Assembly: GCA_026415695.1 (NCBI GenBank)
Contig: JAOAGP010000073.1
Coordinates: 1-32,449, forward strand
Source: Thermodesulfovibrionales bacterium
Lineage (GTDB): Bacteria; Nitrospirota; Thermodesulfovibrionia; Thermodesulfovibrionales; Dissulfurispiraceae
Direction: 5' to 3'
DNA: 32,449 nucleotides
Below the pieces are notes generated by a model. The model saw nothing but the letters and a program-made list of their open reading frames with translations. It searched no databases and was not told the DNA's origin. Below are positions 5,375 to 16,195 of the stretch, in pieces (position 1 is the stretch's first letter; each line of letters starts with the position of its first letter). A program made the translations under genes and the position numbers.

Positions 5375-7345
5375 CTACTGACGACCTTGTAAGAGTTCAT
5401 CCACAACAGTTGGATCGGCAAGGGTACTTGTATCCCCTAACTCCTCTACATCACCCCTTGCAATCTTTCTAAGAATCCTCCTCATAATCTTACCACTTCT
5501 TGTCTTTGGCAAACCGGGTGCAAATTGCATCTTATCTGGTGTTGCAATTGGACCTATAACAGCCCTGACATGACCAACAAGTATCTTTTTGAGCTCATCA
5601 GACGGTTGATAACCCTCTTTGAGCGTGACATATACATAAATGCCTTCACCCTTGATATCATGAGGATATCCAACGACTGCAGCCTCGGCAACTGCCTCAT
5701 GGCTCACAAGGGCTGACTCTATCTCTGCTGTGCCTAATCTATGACCAGATACATTGATGACATCGTCAATCCTACCCATAAGCCAAAAGTCTCCATCTTC
5801 ATCTATCCTTGCACCATCACCAGTGAAATACTTGCCGGGAACCCTTGAGAAATAGACATCCTTTACCCTTTTATTTTCTGGGTCTCCATAAGTTCCTCTT
5901 AAGATGCCTGGCCATGGTTTTTCAATCACGAGATATCCACCCTCATTTACTCCTGCCTTTGAGCCATCTTCTTTTAAGACAACAGGGACAATACCGGGAA
6001 ATGGTCTATTTGCAGAACCGGGTTTTAGTGTCATTGCACCGGGTAAGGGGGTAATCATTATACCTCCTGTTTCTGTCTGCCACCATGTATCAACTATGGG
6101 CAGTTTCCCCTTGCCAATATTATTGTGATACCACATCCATGCCTCAGGATTGATAGGTTCACCAACAGAACCCAACACCCTTAAGGAAGACAAATCATAC
6201 TTTGCAGGCCATGATTCTCCTTCTCTCATAAGTGCCCTTATTGCAGTTGGTGCTGTGTAGAATATGTTTACCTTGTGTTTTTCAACGATATCCCAAAATC
6301 TACCGGGGTTTGGGTAAGTAGGGACACCCTCAAACATAAGACTTGTTGCCCCATTTGAGAGCGGGCCATAAAGTATATAACTATGCCCTGTTACCCATCC
6401 AAGGTCTGCAGTACAGAAATGGATGTCTTCGTCGTGATAGTCAAATATCCATTTGAATGTTAGTTTTGCATATAAGAGATATCCTGCTGTTGTATGCAAT
6501 ACCCCCTTTGGCTTTCCAGTAGAGCCTGATGTGTAGAGTATAAACAGTGGGTCTTCTGAATCCATCTTTTCAGGTTCGCAGTATTTAGGTATGTCAGGAT
6601 CAGACATGCATTCATGCCACCATATATCCCTATTTGGCTCCATGTCCACGCCACTTGTTCTTTGGACTACGACCACCTTTTCAACTGTAGGACATTCTTG
6701 AAGTGCGGTGTCTGCATTTGCCTTAAGAGGCACTTGTCTGCCTCCTCTTACCCCTCTGTCTGCAGTGATAAGTAGTTTTGCCTTGCAGTCTTGGATCCTA
6801 TCTTTCAATGCCTGTGAACTAAACCCACCAAATACTACGCTATGTATGGCACCAATCCTTGCACATGCCAACATGGAAATGGGAAGTTCAGGTATCATCG
6901 GAAGATAGATAGTAACCCTGTCGCCCTTCTTGATACCTAATTTTTTTAGGGCATTTGCAAACTTGTTTACCTCGTAATACAGTTGCTGATATGTGTATGT
7001 TTTATAACTGCCGTCATCTGCCTCCCAGATTAAGGCAGCCTTGTTTCTTGTGGGTGTATTTATATATCTGTCAAGGCAATTGTATGATACATTCAATTTT
7101 CCACCTATGAACCATTTCACAAATGGCTTGTTGAAATCGTATTCAAGAACCTTTGACCATTTGGTATCCCAAACGAGCATCTGTTCTGCCATCTCACTCC
7201 AAAAACCTTCAGGGTCTTCAATAGATCGTTTGTAAATACTTTCGTATTCCTCCATGCTCTTGATGTGTGCCTTTGCACTGAATTCCTTTGATGGTGGAAA
7301 TGTTCTTTTTTCATCCATCAATACTGAGATTGACTCTTTTGACAT
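5375..7345 (-). CDS. acs: acetyl-CoA synthetase (AMP-forming)
   Basis: Converts acetate, ATP and CoA to acetyl-CoA through acetyl-AMP in the cytoplasm. At 656 residues it is the normal family length. Visible motifs: the ATP-binding loop [11 protein letters not shown], the acetate/AMP pocket segment [10 protein letters not shown], the hinge block [14 protein letters not shown], the [14 protein letters not shown] motif, and the C-terminal [11 protein letters not shown]. The last contains the lysine (about 619) that is acetylated by Pat-type enzymes in other bacteria, so post-translational control is plausible. A textbook ribosome-binding site (AAGGAGGT) precedes the ATG. It is the last gene of the acetate operon, 41 bases after actP and just before a strong hairpin, which fits uptake followed by activation of acetate. 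Confidence 0.96.
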
Positions 7346-7386
7346 CTTTACCTCCTTAAAGTTGATTTAGATAAATAAGATTCAAA

Positions 7387-9105
7387 CTACTCTGCACCTA
7401 TACCTATAAATGACCTAATCTTTTCATCCTCAAATTTCTTCTCAGCCTCTTTGTCTCTAAATATCAAAGACACTATTATTCCAACAACGAAGGACAAAGA
7501 CATGGAGATTATTCCGGGGTTTCGCATATCAAATATTGGTTTTGGCATCTGCTCTTTTAGATTACTAATAGCCTTTGATGCCTTCTGTTTCTCTTCTTTT
7601 ATCATCTCATCTATCGTGTTCTGTTCCTTTGTTGTAGTCCTTTGTGCCATTAGGTTATCAATCTTTATCTTTGACTCCTTCTCAATGTCCTTTATTTTGG
7701 TTTCTATTGCTTTCTTGTCACCGCTGTGTATGATATCTACCCATACTGTAGGGCTTAGTATAATCAATCCAGTAGCAAGTGCTAAACCAGTATAAATACT
7801 CGCTACCGCCCCCTTTGTAGTAAATCTTTTCCATAATATTGAAAGTAACAGGGCAGGAAAGTTAGCACTTGCTGCAACGGCAAACGCAAGTCCTACCATA
7901 AATGCAACATTCTGCCCTTTAAATACAATTCCTAGTAGTATAGCACTTACCCCAAGAAAGAGTGTGGCAGCCTTTGCAACCCTCACCTCTTCTTTCTCGT
8001 TTGCAATGCCTTTCCTTATAACCCCTACATACAGGTCATGTGAAAGTGCTGAAGCCCCAGCCAAAGTTAGTCCAGCGACAACCGCAAGTATTGTAGCAAA
8101 TGCAACGGCTGACAAGAAACCTAAAAAGGGAGTGCCCCCTAATGTCTCAGCAAGCAGTGGTGCTGCCATATTACCACCCTTGTCAATACCGGCTATTATG
8201 TCTTGCCCAACAAGCACAGCAGCACCAAAACCAATGGTAACGGTCAGTATATAAAAGTATCCAATGAAGCCAGTTGCATAAAAAACAGATTTTCTCGCCT
8301 CTTTAGCATCAGGGACGGTATAAAATCTCATAAGTATATGTGGCAATCCAGCAGTCCCAAACATCAATGCTAAACCCAATGAAAATGCCTCTAAGGGATT
8401 GGCAATGAGACCACCTGGTTCAAGGAATTTGTCTCCGTATTTTGTTACCGCTTCATTGAAAAGGTTGCCATAGTTGAAACCAAACTGTGCAAGTGTAAGG
8501 ATTACAAGTAAGGTAGCTCCACCTAAAAGTAATACTGCCTTGATTATCTGAACCCAAGTGGTTGCAAGCATGCCTCCAAACAAGACATAGGATATCATCA
8601 GTCCGCCAACGATTATTATGGCAATCTCATAAGGTAAGCCAAATAGCAGTTTTATAAGGGTGCCAGCGCCCACCATCTGTGCAATCAGATAAAATAAAAC
8701 AGTTATAAGTGAACCAGTAGCAGCCGCTGTCCTAATAGGTCTTTGATGTAACCTGTATGCCACAACATCAGCAAAGGTATATTTCCCCAAGTTCCTAAGC
8801 GGCTCAGCAATGAGGAAGGTGAGTATTGGCCATCCAACAAGCCAACCCACTGAGTATATCAGTCCATCATAACCCTTTAGGGAAACGAGCCCAGCAATAC
8901 CTAAAAAAGACGCCGCAGACATGTAGTCTCCAGCCAGTGCAAGCCCGTTTTGAAACCCTGTAATGCTTCTGCCTGCTGCATAAAATTCCTTTGTAGTCCG
9001 AGTCCTTTTTGCAGCCCAATATGTAATAAAGAGTGTGCCACTTACAAATAAAAGAAAAAACAGTATTGATTCTAAATGCACTTGTCCTATGGTTGTCTGT
9101 TGCAT
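7387..9105 (-). CDS. actP: acetate/cation symporter of the SSS family
   Basis: Sodium:solute symporter that imports acetate and other short monocarboxylates across the inner membrane. It has about 13 membrane helices and ActP-like signature stretches ([16 protein letters not shown] near 42-57, [36 protein letters not shown]). Its 572 residues exceed the usual 550 or so because of a strongly charged, probably coiled-coil segment of about 67 residues (roughly 462-528) between the last two helices, where typical ActP proteins have a short loop. The ribosome-binding site GGGTGAG precedes the ATG. The DUF485 gene ends four bases upstream and acs follows, the classic DUF485-actP-acs arrangement. 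Confidence is high for family and role, lower for exact substrate. Confidence 0.93.
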
Positions 9106-9109
9106 GGTC

Positions 9110-9415
9110 TCACCCTATCTTTTCACGAATGTTTTTTACCATCGTGTCGTATTTGTTATTAGCCCAGAGGACATATATACCTGTTAGTATCCATGAAAGT
9201 ATGATTGTGCCAACTGCAATGGGTATTCCCCATGTTATCACACCATAAAATTTTGATGATAAAAAAGGTTTGTTGTAGGCTATAAGCCAAATAAAGCCGA
9301 AATACAGAAACAGCTCAAGCACTGTCAAAACAAAAGAGATGATAGTCTTTTGGCTGACAAGTGTTTTAAATTCTGGATCTTCTTGGATCCTTACCCCTCT
9401 TCTTCCCTCTGTCAT
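9110..9415 (-). CDS. DUF485 (YjcH-like) small membrane protein
   Basis: A 101-residue inner-membrane protein with two hydrophobic helices (about 25-47 and 58-82) and charged ends. The [12 protein letters not shown] start and the arrangement Q-K-x-I-x-F near the first helix are typical of the DUF485 family, which nearly always sits directly upstream of ActP-type permeases and is thought to accompany them; its exact job is not established. Strong ribosome-binding site (AAGGAGGGGG). Four bases separate it from actP, so the two are surely co-translated. Confidence 0.85.
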
Positions 9416-9447
9416 TTTGTTTTACCCCCTCCTTCTTGTTTTTTTGA

Positions 9448-11358
9448 TTAAATAATCATGCTTTTGTATCTGTCAATGATATACACCTGCACATTGGATA
9501 TAAGATTAAATGTCTGTTTCAGGAGTCTTCTCTGAAGATTAGTAAGGTGCTCGGGATTGATAAAGTTATCAGGTGTCTTGCCTTCCTTTATCTTTGCAAG
9601 TTGGTTTTGTATCCTTAGCAACATCAAAAGGTCAAATCCGTGCAGTAATTCATCGGCATAGTCCTTCATCATGCCGTGTAGTCCTCGGAGTGCCTCAATC
9701 CTGTCGTATGTTGAGGTCTCTTTTACCCCTCTCTCAAATGCAAATAGTCTTACAATATCAACTATCAAGGTGGTTCCTTTGATCTTCAGATTGAGTTTGT
9801 CTTTATGCTCACCTTCTTTCTCTAATACAAATGATTTGAAAAAGCCAATCGGAGGTTTGTTTTTTATGGCCATATTTGCAACACTGCCAAGGAATAGTTT
9901 TTGATTTTGAATGTTTTTAAACAGATTGTCCTTAAGGTCATTAGCCAATTTTAAATCCCCATAAAGTGGTCTGAAATCAAAGAAAATCAGAGATTTTATG
10001 AGTGCATCAGGGAATGGATTCATTATCCATTGGTTAAACATCCTTCTCCACTGTGATAATGGTTGCCTCCACATAGGGTTACTTGCCATGTATCCTGCAG
10101 GGCATGTAGGAAAGCCACATTTTTGTAGAGATTCTTTAACAAATTGGGTGAAATCCTCAAAATACTTATCAACTATTGGTTTTAGTATAGGGTCATAATC
10201 TTCATAAATGATTGCATTGTCTTGGTCGGTTTTGAAGGTTTGCTCCTTGCGTCCTTCACTACCAAAGACTATCCAACAGTAAGAGATAGGCGGTTTTCCG
10301 AATCTCTTTTCTGTGAGAGAAAGGATCTTCTTTACCAGTCTGTCATTTAGTTCAGTTATTATCTTTGTAATTGCGTAAGCCTTTACCCCCTCTTTAAGCA
10401 TCAGGTTTATAATCGTGTTAATCTTTTTTGAGACTGGCACTAATCCATCTACAGAGATTTGATTCTCAATGTCTCTTGCTATGTTAATGGGGGATATCCC
10501 CTGTAGTGTCATTAGATCATGGTTTGTGATGATACCCTTTAGCTTGCCATCATCCACAACGAGTAGATGATGGATGTTGTGTCTTATCATCTTTAGGAGA
10601 GCCTCAAAGCAGTATTCCTTTGAATCTACCTTTATTAGTGTAAGCGACATGATTGACCCTATGTTTTCATTTACATCCCTACCCCTTGCAACAACCTTTT
10701 CACGGAGGTCTTTGTCAGTAACGATACCTACAGGGACTGCATCATTATCAATTATCACAAGACAGCTGATCCTGTGTATAGACATGATTTCTGCTGCTTC
10801 TTTAATGGTTGTATTGTCTTGAAAGGCTGATATTACACCTTTGGTTGAAAGTTCACCCACAGTGGTTGTAAAGAGCAGTTTATCACTGCCGATATTCATG
10901 AGCCCTTTGTCTTCGTATTCTCTAACGGGTTTGTCTATGTATTTTCTTAAAAATGTCTTGTTGAAATAATCACGAAAGTCAGTATTTCTCTCAAGAAGCC
11001 TCAAGAAGTTTTCTTTTGAGATCAGCAAGCAGATGGTATCCTGTAAGGTAACCACCGTTGCCTTTGCAACATCACTACTCATTAGGGATAGATAGCCAAT
11101 TAGCTCACCTTCACCACGATAGTCAGTAATCACCTCAATACCATCCTCTGTTGTGATAAAGACCTTTACGCTACCCTTTTTTATTACCCTCAAGAATTTG
11201 CTTGGCTCTGCCCCCTGTTTCATGATGATGGTGTCTTTAGGATAGAATTCTATGGATATTTGTTCGCTTAATGAGACTAACTCATTGTTTTGTAAAAATT
11301 GAAATGGAGGGATCTCTGACAAAAAATTTACTATCTCTTCGGTTTTCATGTCTATCAT
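9448..11358 (-). CDS. cNMP-binding / CBS pair / DUF294 nucleotidyltransferase signalling protein
   Basis: A 636-residue cytoplasmic regulator with four parts in order: a cyclic-nucleotide-binding fold (about 15-115), a tandem CBS pair (about 170-285) that would bind adenine nucleotides, a DUF294 nucleotidyltransferase domain with the GSEGRKEQTFKTDQDNA motif (near 365-380), and the helical DUF294 C-terminal domain. The nucleotidyltransferase motif resembles those of GlnD/GlnE, so it may transfer a nucleotide onto a protein partner; substrate unknown. Relatives are often encoded beside ActP, as here. The gene is the first of the acetate unit: an extended -10 promoter lies just upstream, AAGGGGT serves as ribosome-binding site, and DUF485 follows after 32 bases. 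An alternative start is the Met three codons later (11349). Confidence 0.88.
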   Translation of the reverse strand: MIDMKTEEIVNFLSEIPPFQFLQNNELVSLSEQISIEFYPKDTIIMKQGAEPSKFLRVIKKGSVKVFITTEDGIEVITDYRGEGELIGYLSLMSSDVAKATVVTLQDTICLLISKENFLRLLERNTDFRDYFNKTFLRKYIDKPVREYEDKGLMNIGSDKLLFTTTVGELSTKGVISAFQDNTTIKEAAEIMSIHRISCLVIIDNDAVPVGIVTDKDLREKVVARGRDVNENIGSIMSLTLIKVDSKEYCFEALLKMIRHNIHHLLVVDDGKLKGIITNHDLMTLQGISPINIARDIENQISVDGLVPVSKKINTIINLMLKEGVKAYAITKIITELNDRLVKKILSLTEKRFGKPPISYCWIVFGSEGRKEQTFKTDQDNAIIYEDYDPILKPIVDKYFEDFTQFVKESLQKCGFPTCPAGYMASNPMWRQPLSQWRRMFNQWIMNPFPDALIKSLIFFDFRPLYGDLKLANDLKDNLFKNIQNQKLFLGSVANMAIKNKPPIGFFKSFVLEKEGEHKDKLNLKIKGTTLIVDIVRLFAFERGVKETSTYDRIEALRGLHGMMKDYADELLHGFDLLMLLRIQNQLAKIKEGKTPDNFINPEHLTNLQRRLLKQTFNLISNVQVYIIDRYKSMII

Positions 11359-11490: not shown

Positions 11491-11949
11491 CTATTCCACT
11501 ATCCAAACGGTGCAACTTTTTGGTGTGTGCAATATCTTATTAGATGTGCTACCAAATATGAATTCCTCTTTCTTGGATATGCCCCTTCTACCAATCACTA
11601 CAGTTGAGCAATTAATCTCTTGTTGTTTTTGTAATATGCATTCACCGACTGAACTACAAGACTCAACAATGAGTATTTCCTTAATACTATCTTCCTTAAA
11701 GCCAAAATCAGTAAGCACCTTGTGAGATCTGTGAAGGATACCCTCCCCTGCAACCTTTTTTTCTCTAATCCAACTTGTCTTTTCTTCTTCGTTGAAAAAA
11801 TAGTCATCCTGTGGGAGTAAGACTATGTGCAGAAGAAATATCCTAAAATCAGTCATCCCCCTTAACAATTCACCAACATAGTTAATAGCCCTCATAGAGT
11901 TTTCTGACTCGTCTACTGCTATGAGTATTTTTCTGTTTATTTTATCCAT
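11491..11949 (-). CDS. universal stress protein (UspA family)
   Basis: Small cytoplasmic alpha/beta protein of 152 residues. It starts with the family beta strand KILIAVDES (Asp13) and has the full ATP-binding pattern G-x2-G-x9-G-S/T (Gly120, Gly123, Gly133-Ser134), so it belongs to the nucleotide-binding subgroup. Members adjust stress or energy responses, usually by binding partners. A clear ribosome-binding site (CGGAGGTAAT) precedes the ATG. It lies 16 bases after the kinase-like gene and about 130 bases before the cNMP/CBS protein. A weak hairpin (TGTTAC/GTAACA at about 11465-11481) follows the gene and may reduce readthrough into the acetate unit. Confidence 0.9.
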   Translation of the reverse strand: MDKINRKILIAVDESENSMRAINYVGELLRGMTDFRIFLLHIVLLPQDDYFFNEEEKTSWIREKKVAGEGILHRSHKVLTDFGFKEDSIKEILIVESCSSVGECILQKQQEINCSTVVIGRRGISKKEEFIFGSTSNKILHTPKSCTVWIVE

Positions 11950-11965
11950 TGTGATTACCTCCGTT

Positions 11966-12931
11966 TTATTTAGAGATTTTTTGTCTCAACTCCTGTAAGT
12001 CAGTGAGAAGTTGTCTTGTATCGTCATAATAGACTGGTGCCCCTACCGAAAAATGTAGTAGTATCAAGTTTAACTCATCAGGTATATATTCAAATACCTT
12101 TTTTAGATTAACCACCCTGTTGTTAAAGATTATATTCATATCGTCTTTGTTGAGTGTATAAAAGGCAGGGCTGTTTGTTGCCTTTAGTGCTTGTATCGTA
12201 ACATCTCCTCTACCTGTGATGTATGTCAGTATGTTGCCTAATCCAAAAAGGTCATAACCAAACATATTTTCCTTGTGTATGTAGTTGTAATCAAAGTCTA
12301 TCCATGTGTTTATACAGGTGTTTTTTTCCCTGATGATGTGGTCTCTTCTGATATCGCCGTGTTTTTCGTTGTTTTCGTGTAAGAAGGCAATCGCCTTTAC
12401 TAATTCAATGTATTCATCTAAAACCTGTGGGAAGTAATTGAAGAAATAATCCTCGTGACTACTTCCAAGTGTCAGGATGTAGTCTGCGTAATTTATACCC
12501 TTGATAAAGTCAATAATCCTTACTATATTACCTGCAGAGTCCTTCACTGAAAATCCCTGCATGAATCTCCTATCTCCTCTTACCATCTCAAGTATCCGTG
12601 CCTCTTTTTTAGAACTCCTGAAACACTCAAAGGTTATATCACCAACCCTTGATGTAAATCTTTCGTGAAAGGTAAGCTTGATTATCTTTTGGCTTGCATC
12701 AATCAAATCAATCGCCTTTTTTACCCAAAATTTTGGTTGCTCATCAATACCAAAACGCCCTTCCTTTTGGTCGTGTCTTATCAAATACGGAATGTTGTTG
12801 AGCAAAACAATATCATCATAGCCAATCTTGTAATAATCGCTCGTATCAGTGATGATGTTTAGTCGTTTAGGCAGGTTTTCCTTTGGAAGTCTTTGGACTA
12901 ATAAGTCCCATATTTCAGATTCGCTTAGCAT
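11966..12931 (-). CDS. protein-kinase-like protein with HGD and DFD motifs
   Basis: A 321-residue soluble protein. Its C-terminal half carries the catalytic core of a protein-kinase-like fold: AIAFLHENNEKHGDIRRDHI (about 180-199), where the catalytic loop reads H-G-D rather than H-R-D, and WIDFDYNY (about 210-217), where the metal-binding D-F-G reads D-F-D. A lysine in a beta strand (IIKLTF, about 83-88) could be the ATP-binding one. The N-terminal 75 residues are unfamiliar. Such HGD forms occur in aminoglycoside-phosphotransferase-like and other atypical kinases, so the substrate might be a small molecule or a protein. It begins three bases after carB and is followed by a universal stress protein gene, which favours a stress or metabolic signalling role; that is inference. 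Confidence 0.65.
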   Translation of the reverse strand: MLSESEIWDLLVQRLPKENLPKRLNIITDTSDYYKIGYDDIVLLNNIPYLIRHDQKEGRFGIDEQPKFWVKKAIDLIDASQKIIKLTFHERFTSRVGDITFECFRSSKKEARILEMVRGDRRFMQGFSVKDSAGNIVRIIDFIKGINYADYILTLGSSHEDYFFNYFPQVLDEYIELVKAIAFLHENNEKHGDIRRDHIIREKNTCINTWIDFDYNYIHKENMFGYDLFGLGNILTYITGRGDVTIQALKATNSPAFYTLNKDDMNIIFNNRVVNLKKVFEYIPDELNLILLHFSVGAPVYYDDTRQLLTDLQELRQKISK

Positions 12932-12934
12932 CTT

Positions 12935-15900
12935 TTAATGTCTGTGGTATTCTTGAATGGACTTGATTGTCATCTGCTTTGTCTTTACCATCTCCATGGC
13001 TGTAACCGCAGCCTTAGCCCCAGCAATTGTGGTTGAATAAGAGATACCAAACTGTAGAGCAGATCTCCTGATTGAAAGCGAATCCCTCTGTGCCTGAGCC
13101 CCTGTGACTGTGTTTATGATGTAAGAAAGTTCTCTGTTTTTAATCATATCAACGCAGTGGGGTCTTCCCTCATTGACCTTGTTTATTGCCTCCACCTTAA
13201 TGCCATGGTTTCTTAAGTAGGATGCAGTCCCACGGGTTGCAACAAGTGAAAATCCTAATGCAATGAGCCTTTTTGCTATCTCCACTGTAGCAGGCTTGTC
13301 CTTATCCTTTACACTGATAAAACACTTTCCACCAATGGGAAGCCTGTTGTTTGAGGCACTTTGAGCCTTTGCATAGGCAAGACCGAAGTCTTCATCAATA
13401 CCCATAACCTCGCCAGTTGATTTCATCTCAGGACCAAGGATAGTGTCAACACCGGGGAATTTATCAAACGGAAATACTGCCTCTTTTACTGAAACATGCC
13501 TGATCTCAAAGTCTTTTGTAATGTTTAGTTCCTTTAATGTTTTACCAGCAATGAGTTTTGCGGCAATCTTTGCAAGAGGCACTCCTATTGTCTTACTTAC
13601 ATAAGGTATTGTCCTTGATGCCCTTGGATTTACCTCAAGGACATAGATTGTATCATCCTTGACTGCAAACTGTGCATTCATCAATCCAACAACCTTTAAT
13701 TCAAGAGCAATCCTTTTTGCCTCTTCTTTGATCTCCGATATTATACTCTGAGGAAGGGAGTAAGGCGGTATTGAGCAGGCAGAATCACCTGAATGGATAC
13801 CTGCCTCTTCAATGTGCTCCATCACGCTTCCAATGACGGCAATCTCTCCATCTGATATTGCATCCACATCTACCTCTATGGCATCCTCAAGATATTTATC
13901 AATCAAGATAGGATGCTCTGGGGATACCTTAACCGCCTTTTCCATGTATTCAATCAAAGACTTTTCATCATAGACTATCTCCATTGCCCTGCCACCTAAC
14001 ACATACGATGGTCTTACCAACACAGGATAACCAATGGTATTTGCAACCGTAATAGCCTCACTCACAGACATCACAGTCTCGCTTTGGGGTTGTTTGAGAG
14101 ACAGTTTGTCAAGTAGCTCCTTAAACCTCTTTCTGTCTTCTGCCCTGTCAATAGAGTCTGACTTTGTGCCAAGGATGTTTACCCCCTCTTTTTCAAGCGG
14201 AACGGCAAGTTTTAGTGGTGTTTGGCCACCAAACTGAACGATTACTCCAATGGGGTTTTCCTTTTTGATGATGTGTAGCACATCCTCAAGTGTAAGGGGC
14301 TCAAAGAAGAGTTTATCTGATGTGTCGTAATCAGTGCTGACGGTTTCAGGATTGCAATTGACCATTATGGTCTCATAGCCCAGTTCCTTTAAGGCATAGA
14401 CAGCATGCACACAGCAGTAGTCAAATTCAATGCCCTGTCCAATCCTATTTGGTCCTGATCCTAAAATCACAACCTTTTGCCTGTTTGATGGTCTTGCCTC
14501 ACATTCAACGGTTTTTGTGATCTTGGCATTATCACTATCTGCGAGACTAAAAAACGGTCTTTCATAACTTGAATACAGATACGGCGTGTATGCCTCAAAC
14601 TCACCTGCACAAGTATCCACAAGTTTATACACAGGTATGATATCGTTGCGATACCTAAACTCCCTAATCTCTTTTTCAGCCTTGCCCAAGAGATTGCCTA
14701 ACAACCTATCCGAAAAACCCATCATCTTTGCATCGTAGATAACTTGGCTTAAGTCATCAGAGAGTTCTAATCCCTTAAGAGAAGTTAGTTCTTTTTCGGT
14801 GTCAACAATCTCTTTTATATTATTGAGAAACCATCTGTCTATCATAGTGAGTTCATAGATATCGTCCACTGACATGCCTTGCCTAAATGCCTGAGCGATG
14901 TAAAGAAGTCTGTCTGCATTGGGGGTTTTAAGCCTTGCCCTTACTTCATCTTTAGATGCCTCAACTGGCTCCAATCCATAAAGCCCTGTCTCAAGGCTCC
15001 TTAATCCTTTTTGCAGGGATTCCTTAAATGTCCTTCCAATAGACATTATCTCACCCACAGACTTCATCTGTGTCATCAATACTGGGTCTGCGGTTGGAAA
15101 CTTTTCAAAGGTAAATCTCGGTATCTTTGTGACAACATAGTCAATTGTAGGTTCAAATGACGCAGGTGTTTCCTTTGTGATATCGTTTGTCAGTTCATCA
15201 AGGGTATAACCGATTGCGAGTTTTGCCGCAATCTTTGCAATAGGGAATCCTGTTGCCTTACTTGCAAGTGCTGAACTCCTTGATACTCGTGGATTCATCT
15301 CGATTACTACCATATCCCCGTTTGACGGGTTAATCGCAAATTGTATGTTTGAGCCTCCAGTGTCAACACCTATCTCCCTGATAACCGCAATTGCAGCATC
15401 ACGCATAACTTGGTATTCCTTATCAGTAAGTGTCTGAGCAGGTGCAACAGTTATAGAATCACCAGTGTGAATGCCCATAGGGTCAAGGTTTTCAATAGAG
15501 CAGATGATGACTACATTGTCTTTTCTGTCTCTGACTACCTCAAGTTCAAACTCCTTCCAACCAAGGACGGACTGCTCTATCAACACCTGAGACACGGGAC
15601 TTAATTTAAGTGCCCTCTCAAGCATCATTTTGTATTCTTCAATGTTGTAGGCAATGCCACCTCCTGTGCCACCAAGTGTGAAGGCAGGACGAAGAATGGC
15701 AGGGAATCCTGTTTTTTCTACAGCCTTTAGGCCTTCATCTATGGTGTTTACTGCCTCACTGATAGGAACCTTTAGCCCTATGGATGTCATTGCTGATTTA
15801 AATAACTGCCTGTCTTCCGCCTTCTTAATAGCGTTTAGGTTAGCCCCAATGAGCCTTACGCCCTGTTGCTCTAAAATGCCACTTTCGGCAAGTTGAACTG

Positions 15901-16195
15901 CAAGGTTAAGGGCGGTCTGTCCCCCCATTGTTGGTAAGAGTGAATCAGGTTTTTCTTTCTTGATGATTAGTTCAAGTATATCCCTTTGAAGTGGTTCAAT
16001 GTATGTTGCATCGGCGATCTCAGGATCCGTCATTATGGTTGCAGGATTGGAGTTAACAAGCACTACCTCAATCCCTTCTTCTTTTAATGCCTTACACGCC
16101 TGAGTGCCTGAATAATCAAACTCGCAAGCCTGACCGATTATTATCGGTCCTGAGCCGATGAGCATCACCTTTTTGATAGTTTTATCCCTTGGCAT
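12935..16195 (-). CDS. carB: carbamoyl-phosphate synthase large subunit
   Basis: Makes carbamoyl phosphate from bicarbonate, ammonia (passed from glutamine by CarA) and two ATP, feeding pyrimidine and arginine synthesis. Length 1086 residues, normal. Two homologous halves are visible, each starting with a GSGP nucleotide-fold segment ([17 protein letters not shown] near 13, [15 protein letters not shown] near 580). ATP-grasp domains lie at about 130-340 and 680-880, the oligomerisation region between them, and the C-terminal MGS-like allosteric domain at about 950-1080 ([16 protein letters not shown]) would bind regulators such as UMP. GGGGGAT is the ribosome-binding site. carA is not next to it; the downstream partner is a kinase-like gene with three bases between. 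Confidence 0.97.

Follow-up and report, generated by a model that had tools for sequence, protein, structure and literature searches.

A divergent protein kinase family encoded beside a distinct type of universal stress protein in Nitrospirota and Desulfobacterota

Introduction

What does a kinase-like protein encoded between carB and a universal stress protein gene do, and with which of its neighbours does it work? The question is raised by a contig of a Thermodesulfovibrionales bacterium, analyzed here as one window of 32,449 nucleotides, in which an earlier note based on the sequence alone had singled out an atypical kinase-like protein and proposed that it belongs to a small signalling module linking nucleotide supply, stress and acetate metabolism. 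In the following, this protein is called KIN and the universal stress protein encoded beside it USP.

Associations between kinases and Usp domains are on record. According to the consulted sections of the sources cited here, Ser/Thr kinases of Mesorhizobium and Bradyrhizobium carry a fused USPA domain, as does a kinase of the ABC1 type in Nitrosomonas, and plant kinases with Usp domains are cited as well (PMC1262709); bacterial kinase-Usp domain combinations were listed in 2005 and 2010 (PMC1262709, PMC2877116). Phosphorylation is on record as well, for USPs of E. coli, M. tuberculosis and Sulfolobus, and a phosphatase can be the target of a USP (PMC5549992, PMC7693658, in part). Excerpts of the papers cited report that M. 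tuberculosis Rv2623 is phosphorylated at Thr237, PknG being among the kinases active in vitro (PMC5549992), that the Sulfolobus protein SaUspA is phosphorylated in vitro by the kinase ArnC, with a relevance stated to be unknown (PMC7693658), and that tomato SlRd2 is phosphorylated by CIPK6 (PMC10003552).

Results

The locus

The genes follow each other on the minus strand in the order carB, KIN, USP, cNMP/CBS/DUF294 gene, DUF485 gene, actP and acs (Table 1), in a draft genome that is 99.7% complete and contains 11 USP-domain matches. The description given in the earlier note holds at this level: the kinase-like reading frame carries H191-G192-D193 and D212-F213-D214, its start lies 3 bases after the carB stop when the junction is read directly, an ATP-binding-type USP follows after a 16-base gap between the KIN stop and the USP start, and a cNMP/CBS/DUF294 gene is found beyond it. 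The product of usp matches PF00582 with 56.5 bits (cut-off 24) and has the ATP-loop motif G-2x-G-9x-G-S (G120, G123, G133 and S134). The row from the DUF294 gene (cNMP-CBS-NTase) through DUF485 and actP to acs (5375-11358, minus strand) would appear to be a cluster for the uptake and activation of acetate that is distinct from the KIN-USP pair. Promoter and terminator scans gave 14 against 12.4 and 4 against 3.1, respectively, near the shuffled expectation.

Table 1. Features of the KIN-USP locus, in positions of the window.
Feature	Position	Strand	Basis
carB	12935-16195	-	named from sequence
KIN, divergent protein kinase of 321 aa with intact catalytic residues	11966-12931	-	ORF, alignments, model
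KIN loop EGRFGIDEQPKFW (residues 57-69), conserved, at the position of the glycine-rich loop	12725..12763	-	alignments
KIN Lys85, end of beta3 (ATP lysine by position)	12677..12679	-	123/124 rows, 1 gap
KIN Glu110, helix C	12602..12604	-	124/124 rows
KIN catalytic loop HGDIRRDH, residues 191-198, catalytic D193	12338..12361	-	alignment
KIN metal loop WIDFD, residues 210-214, DFD replacing DFG	12290..12304	-	alignment
GGAGG, ribosome-binding-site-like sequence of usp	11958..11962	-	inside the 16-base gap after KIN, read directly
USP, partner-type universal stress protein of 152 aa	11491-11949	-	ORF, Pfam
USP residues 120-136, GRRGISKKEEFIFGSTS, ATP loop and partner signature	11542..11592	-	partner versus paralogue rows
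cNMP/CBS/DUF294 gene	9448-11358	-	132 bases beyond USP

KIN belongs to a divergent kinase family with intact catalytic residues

We aligned relatives of KIN from three phyla in 124 rows. H191, D193, D197, H198, D212, D214 and D227 are each present in all 124, and G192 and R195 each in 123. In the structure model, Lys85 closes strand 81-85 and Glu110 lies within helix 107-116. The Asn of HRDxxxxN and the Gly of DFG are absent from the family, which has H198 and D214 instead in 124/124 rows; H198 occupies the position of the metal-binding Asn of protein kinases. Since the HGD and DFD motifs are kept across 124 relatives, they are family signatures and not signs of decay: the motifs that had been called atypical are indeed there, as regular properties of the family. 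The invariant catalytic residues also rule out that KIN is a pseudokinase.

The N-terminal region had been described as unfamiliar. It turns out to be an ordinary N-lobe with Lys85 and Glu110, which contains an unusual and highly conserved loop, EGRFGIDEQPKFW. This loop is invariant or nearly so in the A1 alignment and more varied across the 124 rows, in which K67 and W69 are nonetheless fully conserved (124/124). Among 17 aligned relatives, 48 columns are invariant, including EGRF, IDEQPKFWV, K85, E110, HGDIR, DH and W.DFD.

The model of KIN has a mean pLDDT of 91.2, and the sole segment below 50 is 56-65, part of the conserved N-lobe loop. When it was compared with the PDB by VIA-align, all 1000 aligned chains had Z of at least 8, and the top ranks were taken by AAK1, GAK, S. 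aureus Stk1 and PknB (Z 17.1-17.6; the best match, at Z 17.6, superposes 227 residues with an rmsd of 3.5). The Foldseek and VIA match lists are filled by protein kinases, so that the absence of other families from them proves nothing. A profile search of PDB sequences retrieved RNase L (2.7e-6), MSK1 (6.7e-6), 9x4g (3.6e-5) and also titin; 9x4g is a 245-aa non-specific Ser/Thr kinase with an HGDL motif, which we take to be Bud32-like.

No curated family recognises KIN: the window protein matches nothing in Pfam at E <= 1, its NCBIfam matches are fragments below threshold, and most relatives match Pfam Pkinase below its cut-off. PF00069 is matched at E <= 0.1 by 16 of 17 scanned members, all weakly; in the 10 members scored singly Pkinase is the top family throughout, with 15.6-31.5 bits, all below the curated cut-off of 31.7. 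One member passes PF07714 (26.3 against a cut-off of 23.1). The best PADLOC match among anti-phage kinases, PD-T4-6 (20.8 bits, E 3.9e-5, one 106-residue stretch), is what would be expected from a distant kinase, and we read it, the MkoA match and the NCBIfam matches of single members as probably generic kinase similarity. As to a phage or plasmid origin, there was no PHROG match and no plasmid match, and the 14 pattern hits included no relative from viral contigs. Because of its conserved residues, its kinase fold and its sub-cut-off Pkinase matches, KIN constitutes a separate, divergent family within the protein-kinase superfamily. It resembles the Hanks-type, eukaryotic-like kinases of PF00069 (PknB, Stk1) in fold, in the order of strands and helices, and in the Lys, the helix-C Glu and the catalytic and metal Asp residues; it differs from them in HGDIRxDH (His for Asn), in DFD for DFG and in the unusual conserved loop that replaces the glycine-rich loop. 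The family might be included in KINtaro (PMC10870513).

KIN is patchily distributed and is mostly followed by a USP gene

Close relatives at 40-65% identity occur in three phyla, which argues against chance similarity. Of the 395 Nitrospirota genomes, 58 have KIN (47 of the 324 of good quality), patchily within families; the genus of the window has it in one of three genomes. In Desulfobacterota, by which we mean the phylum of G401 (Desulfobacula), 61 of 345 genomes have a match, with E <= 1e-90 in 57; the four weak ones (G430, G473, G545 and G749) were left out of the counts. In Planctomycetota, 46 of 294 genomes match and 5 strongly, those outside the KIN family scoring 18-34 bits, and these we take to be Hanks-type kinases. 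Further loci are L021, labelled Spirochaetia, and L031, labelled Deltaproteobacteria and filed under Myxococcota in the tree. The kinase tree omits 14 duplicate or fragment loci.

After removal of duplicates, the Nitrospirota linkage set comprises 62 distinct loci or genomes, L021 included. The USP gene lies immediately downstream of KIN on the same strand in 57 of these, as two separate genes in 56 and as a fusion in one; the remainder are four genomes of genus g6, in which the genes are not adjacent, and one contig end. One of the g6 genomes, G007, has the order folP-KIN-isocitrate dehydrogenase (L037:8497-11560) and its USP gene elsewhere (G007:C1:1538375); in another, G030, KIN is itself divided between two contigs. 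On the other hand, the genes that directly precede KIN form 41 clusters in 59 Nitrospirota loci, and those two places beyond KIN form 43 in 58. In Desulfobacterota, a USP gene adjoins KIN in 49 of 57 cases, downstream in 45 and upstream in 4, the others being one contig end and 7 loci without a USP gene within 450 bases. None of the five Planctomycetota loci has an adjacent USP gene. Under a rough chance rate (20 USPs per 2000 genes, one side, one strand) linkage counts of this size would not be accidental. Two loci (L042 in G032 and L044 in G044) have a further, high-scoring USP gene (PF00582) upstream of KIN, so that USPs flank KIN on both sides.

The linkage to usp that the earlier note had proposed to check is therefore conserved, and this part of the suggested module stands. 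The remainder does not: among the 123 other KIN loci (median flank 6.3 kb), carB adjoins KIN in none and occurs in L020 and L025, at distances of 2.2 and 7.2 kb, respectively, homologues of DUF294, DUF485 and actP occur in none, and acs occurs in one, at 3.1 kb. The links with carB, the DUF294 gene and the acetate genes are local to the window.

In L107 (G383; L107:6775-8250), KIN and USP form one in-frame reading frame of 491 aa with a short linker and the Usp domain at the C-terminus. The sister genomes G279 and G333 have two reading frames, 118 and 7 bases apart, respectively. A lost stop codon is the simplest origin of the fusion; in a draft genome, a sequencing error is possible. The 661-aa reading frame of L212 revealed no second domain.

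KIN co-occurs with one type of USP

Genomes contain several USPs (4-20 USP-domain matches in 12 genomes). Partner-type USPs were sought with two profiles, A2, built from 28 partner USPs and applied to Nitrospirota, and A3, built from 30 and applied to Desulfobacterota. As both were made from linked USPs, their detection of those proteins is partly circular. Genomes without a match in the KIN profile search of their phylum are called KIN-negative. Among 390 Nitrospirota genomes, A2 reaches at least 118 bits in the 58 KIN-positive ones and in no other, the rest staying at or below 101 bits: the partner-type USP is found in 58/58 KIN-positive and 0/332 KIN-negative genomes. The hits include the four g6 genomes with unlinked genes (244-256 bits), none of which was used to build the profile, and G335, also outside the profile set, where KIN and USP are on separate contigs (182 bits). 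In G279, KIN and the partner USP each occur twice. A3 reaches at least 136 bits in 54 Desulfobacterota genomes, namely 53 of the 57 KIN-positive and 1 of the 288 KIN-negative (G485), and the next-best KIN-negative genome reaches 127 bits. The KIN-positive genomes without a partner-type USP are G401, G405, G544 and G509; in G449, G740 and G536 the partner is present though not adjacent.

Both cut-offs were chosen after the gaps (118 against 101 bits; 136 against 127) had been seen, and the P values of the co-occurrence (1e-70 and 2e-56) ignore the relatedness of the genomes. Scoring covered all USP candidates in 13 genomes, with the same outcome there, and a subset of the candidates in some others. 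The exception in G485 (G485:C547:18857-19306; 171.8 bits) is a partner-type USP with no KIN detected, possibly owing to an assembly gap; the USP of G449 has nearly the same score, and KIN is present in that genome. In Nitrospirota genomes of family f29 that lack KIN (G213, G222, G225 and others), there is another group of USPs, to which the partner profile gives about 92-101 bits.

Partner USPs also differ from paralogues around the ATP loop. E129 is found in 111/111 partner rows against 8/40 paralogues, E128 in 107/111 against 12/40, K/R126 in 109/111 against 6/40 (among the listed letters), S136 in 105/111 against 6/40, and S/T125 in 109/111 against 21/40. The ATP-loop motif itself is not universal in partners, one clade having GRHH and another GDVS. 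In the USP tree, from whose paralogue rows the USP of the window, that of G677 and a piece of the G044 partner had been left out, one split of moderate support (SH-aLRT 82) unites all 111 partners with a single "paralogue", L133, which comes from the KIN-positive genome G403. By score the partner is a member of the USP family PF00582, in which it forms a divergent subgroup with GRRGxSKxEEFxxGSxS.

Some kinases have other or additional neighbours

The kinases without a USP (Planctomycetota, Desulfobacula, Desulfosudis, G544 and the Myxococcota/delta bin) form a clade of 9 rows (SH-aLRT 97), which indicates that the kinase fold can serve other partners. In L031 (L031:1003-3637), KIN has two neighbours on the other strand, a response regulator that matches GCV_H and a PAS histidine kinase with an unassigned N-terminal stretch; the reading frames after KIN in L240 and L241 contain a similar stretch. 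A PAS histidine kinase, in L031 together with the response regulator, is a possible alternative partner set for the USP-free kinases. In one clade of Desulfobacterota, a GAF-domain gene directly precedes KIN in 9 loci, giving the order GAF-KIN-USP (L245, at 5488-6069; L250, L251 and L255-L260).

Discussion

The computed evidence shows that KIN and USP are kept together by selection, and their functional coupling is close to shown. Intact catalytic residues, a kinase fold, conserved gene order, co-occurrence and a natural fusion support the pair. On balance, we favour the view that KIN and USP are a dedicated signalling pair, in which KIN is an active, divergent kinase that most likely phosphorylates its private USP partner on a Ser/Thr of the ATP loop. 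KIN would use ATP for this reaction, the candidate sites on USP being S/T125 or S136, and phosphorylation would switch USP between states that may differ in nucleotide binding, dimer formation or client binding. That USP is the substrate rather than the regulator we infer, as we do the phosphosite, the trigger and the physiological output. Several observations count against the pair: the kinases of all five Planctomycetota and a related set of kinases from Desulfobacterota or Myxococcota stand without an adjacent USP, and in Desulfobacterota four KIN-positive genomes lack the partner and one KIN-negative genome has it. Against a special role of S/T125 counts the Ser/Thr found there in about half of the paralogues (21/40).

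The roles could be reversed, which we consider possible, if doubtful: a USP carrying ATP or another nucleotide would bind KIN and switch it on or off, and KIN would phosphorylate other proteins. SaUspA offers a precedent: it binds a phosphatase and stimulates it, an effect that ATP strengthens, according to part of the report (PMC7693658). The ATP-loop motif retained in USP would suit such a role, the KIN-positive genomes without a partner imply that KIN can act alone, and the GAF gene before KIN in the 9 Desulfobacterota loci suggests a ligand input. However, no other conserved target gene adjoins the pair in Nitrospirota, and the aligned USPs of the GAF clade have Asp for Ser at the phosphate-binding position (GDVS), which makes nucleotide binding by them doubtful.

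It is unlikely that KIN is instead an APH-like small-molecule phosphotransferase whose product, or nucleotide, is bound by USP. HGD is common to APH-type enzymes, and WaaP, like KIN with H198, has His in place of Asn. Weak matches exist to APH (PF01636; 2/17 members at E <= 0.1, one of which, scored singly, has 22.0 bits against a cut-off of 23.2) and to Kdo/WaaP (PF06293; 4/17 members, best E 5.1e-4, that member with 20.0 against 21.3). But Pkinase, with matches that are also weak, is hit by far more members (16/17) and ranks first in all 10 listed singly, the fold matches shown are protein kinases, and no conserved biosynthetic gene lies nearby. Finally, a wider module of KIN and USP with carB, the DUF294 gene and acetate uptake, suggested by the carB stop close to KIN and by the same-strand genes just downstream in the window, is refuted by the absence of any such neighbourhood from the 123 other KIN loci and retains next to no probability.

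The KIN-USP pair can be set beside known systems, as far as the consulted parts of the respective papers describe them. The kinase-USPA proteins likewise couple a kinase of the same superfamily to Usp; by description they are single multidomain proteins, set apart from the two genes of KIN-USP, and the ABC1 protein of Nitrosomonas carries Usp at the N-terminus, in contrast to the C-terminal Usp of the L107 fusion (PMC1262709). In the plant kinase-Usp proteins and in SlRd2/CIPK6, Usp is a kinase partner or substrate, as proposed here; these are eukaryotic and involve other kinase families (PMC1262709, PMC10003552). SaUspA, ArnC and PP2A resemble KIN-USP in that a USP is phosphorylated by a kinase and acts on a phospho-signalling enzyme, but the sections concerned describe no gene pair in which a kinase is dedicated to a USP (PMC7693658). 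The portions consulted of a USP survey of Desulfovibrionaceae (PMC8401546) and of a paper on the microbial kinome (PMC1821047) make no mention of such a pair. Kinase plus Usp is thus an already known theme; of the dedicated two-gene pair we found no earlier description in the literature searched, a scope outside which most subscription papers and all preprints fall.

As a tentative suggestion, KIN-USP may represent an unrecognised two-protein class, in which an ATP-binding USP would be a nucleotide or energy sensor that physically gates a private kinase, the altered HGDIRxDH/DFD active site and the EGRFGIDEQPKFW loop would be adapted to USP, GAF input proteins would have been added in some lineages and USP replaced by other partners in others. 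KIN is an unannotated kinase family in 58 of the 395 Nitrospirota and 57 of the 345 Desulfobacterota genomes sampled. It accompanies a single type of USP and is nearly confined to genomes that have this type, which provides a defined pair to assay, and it marks which of the USP-domain matches of a genome is the partner. As a conserved two-gene unit in two phyla, once fused, KIN-USP offers a route to what phosphorylates USPs or what USPs control.
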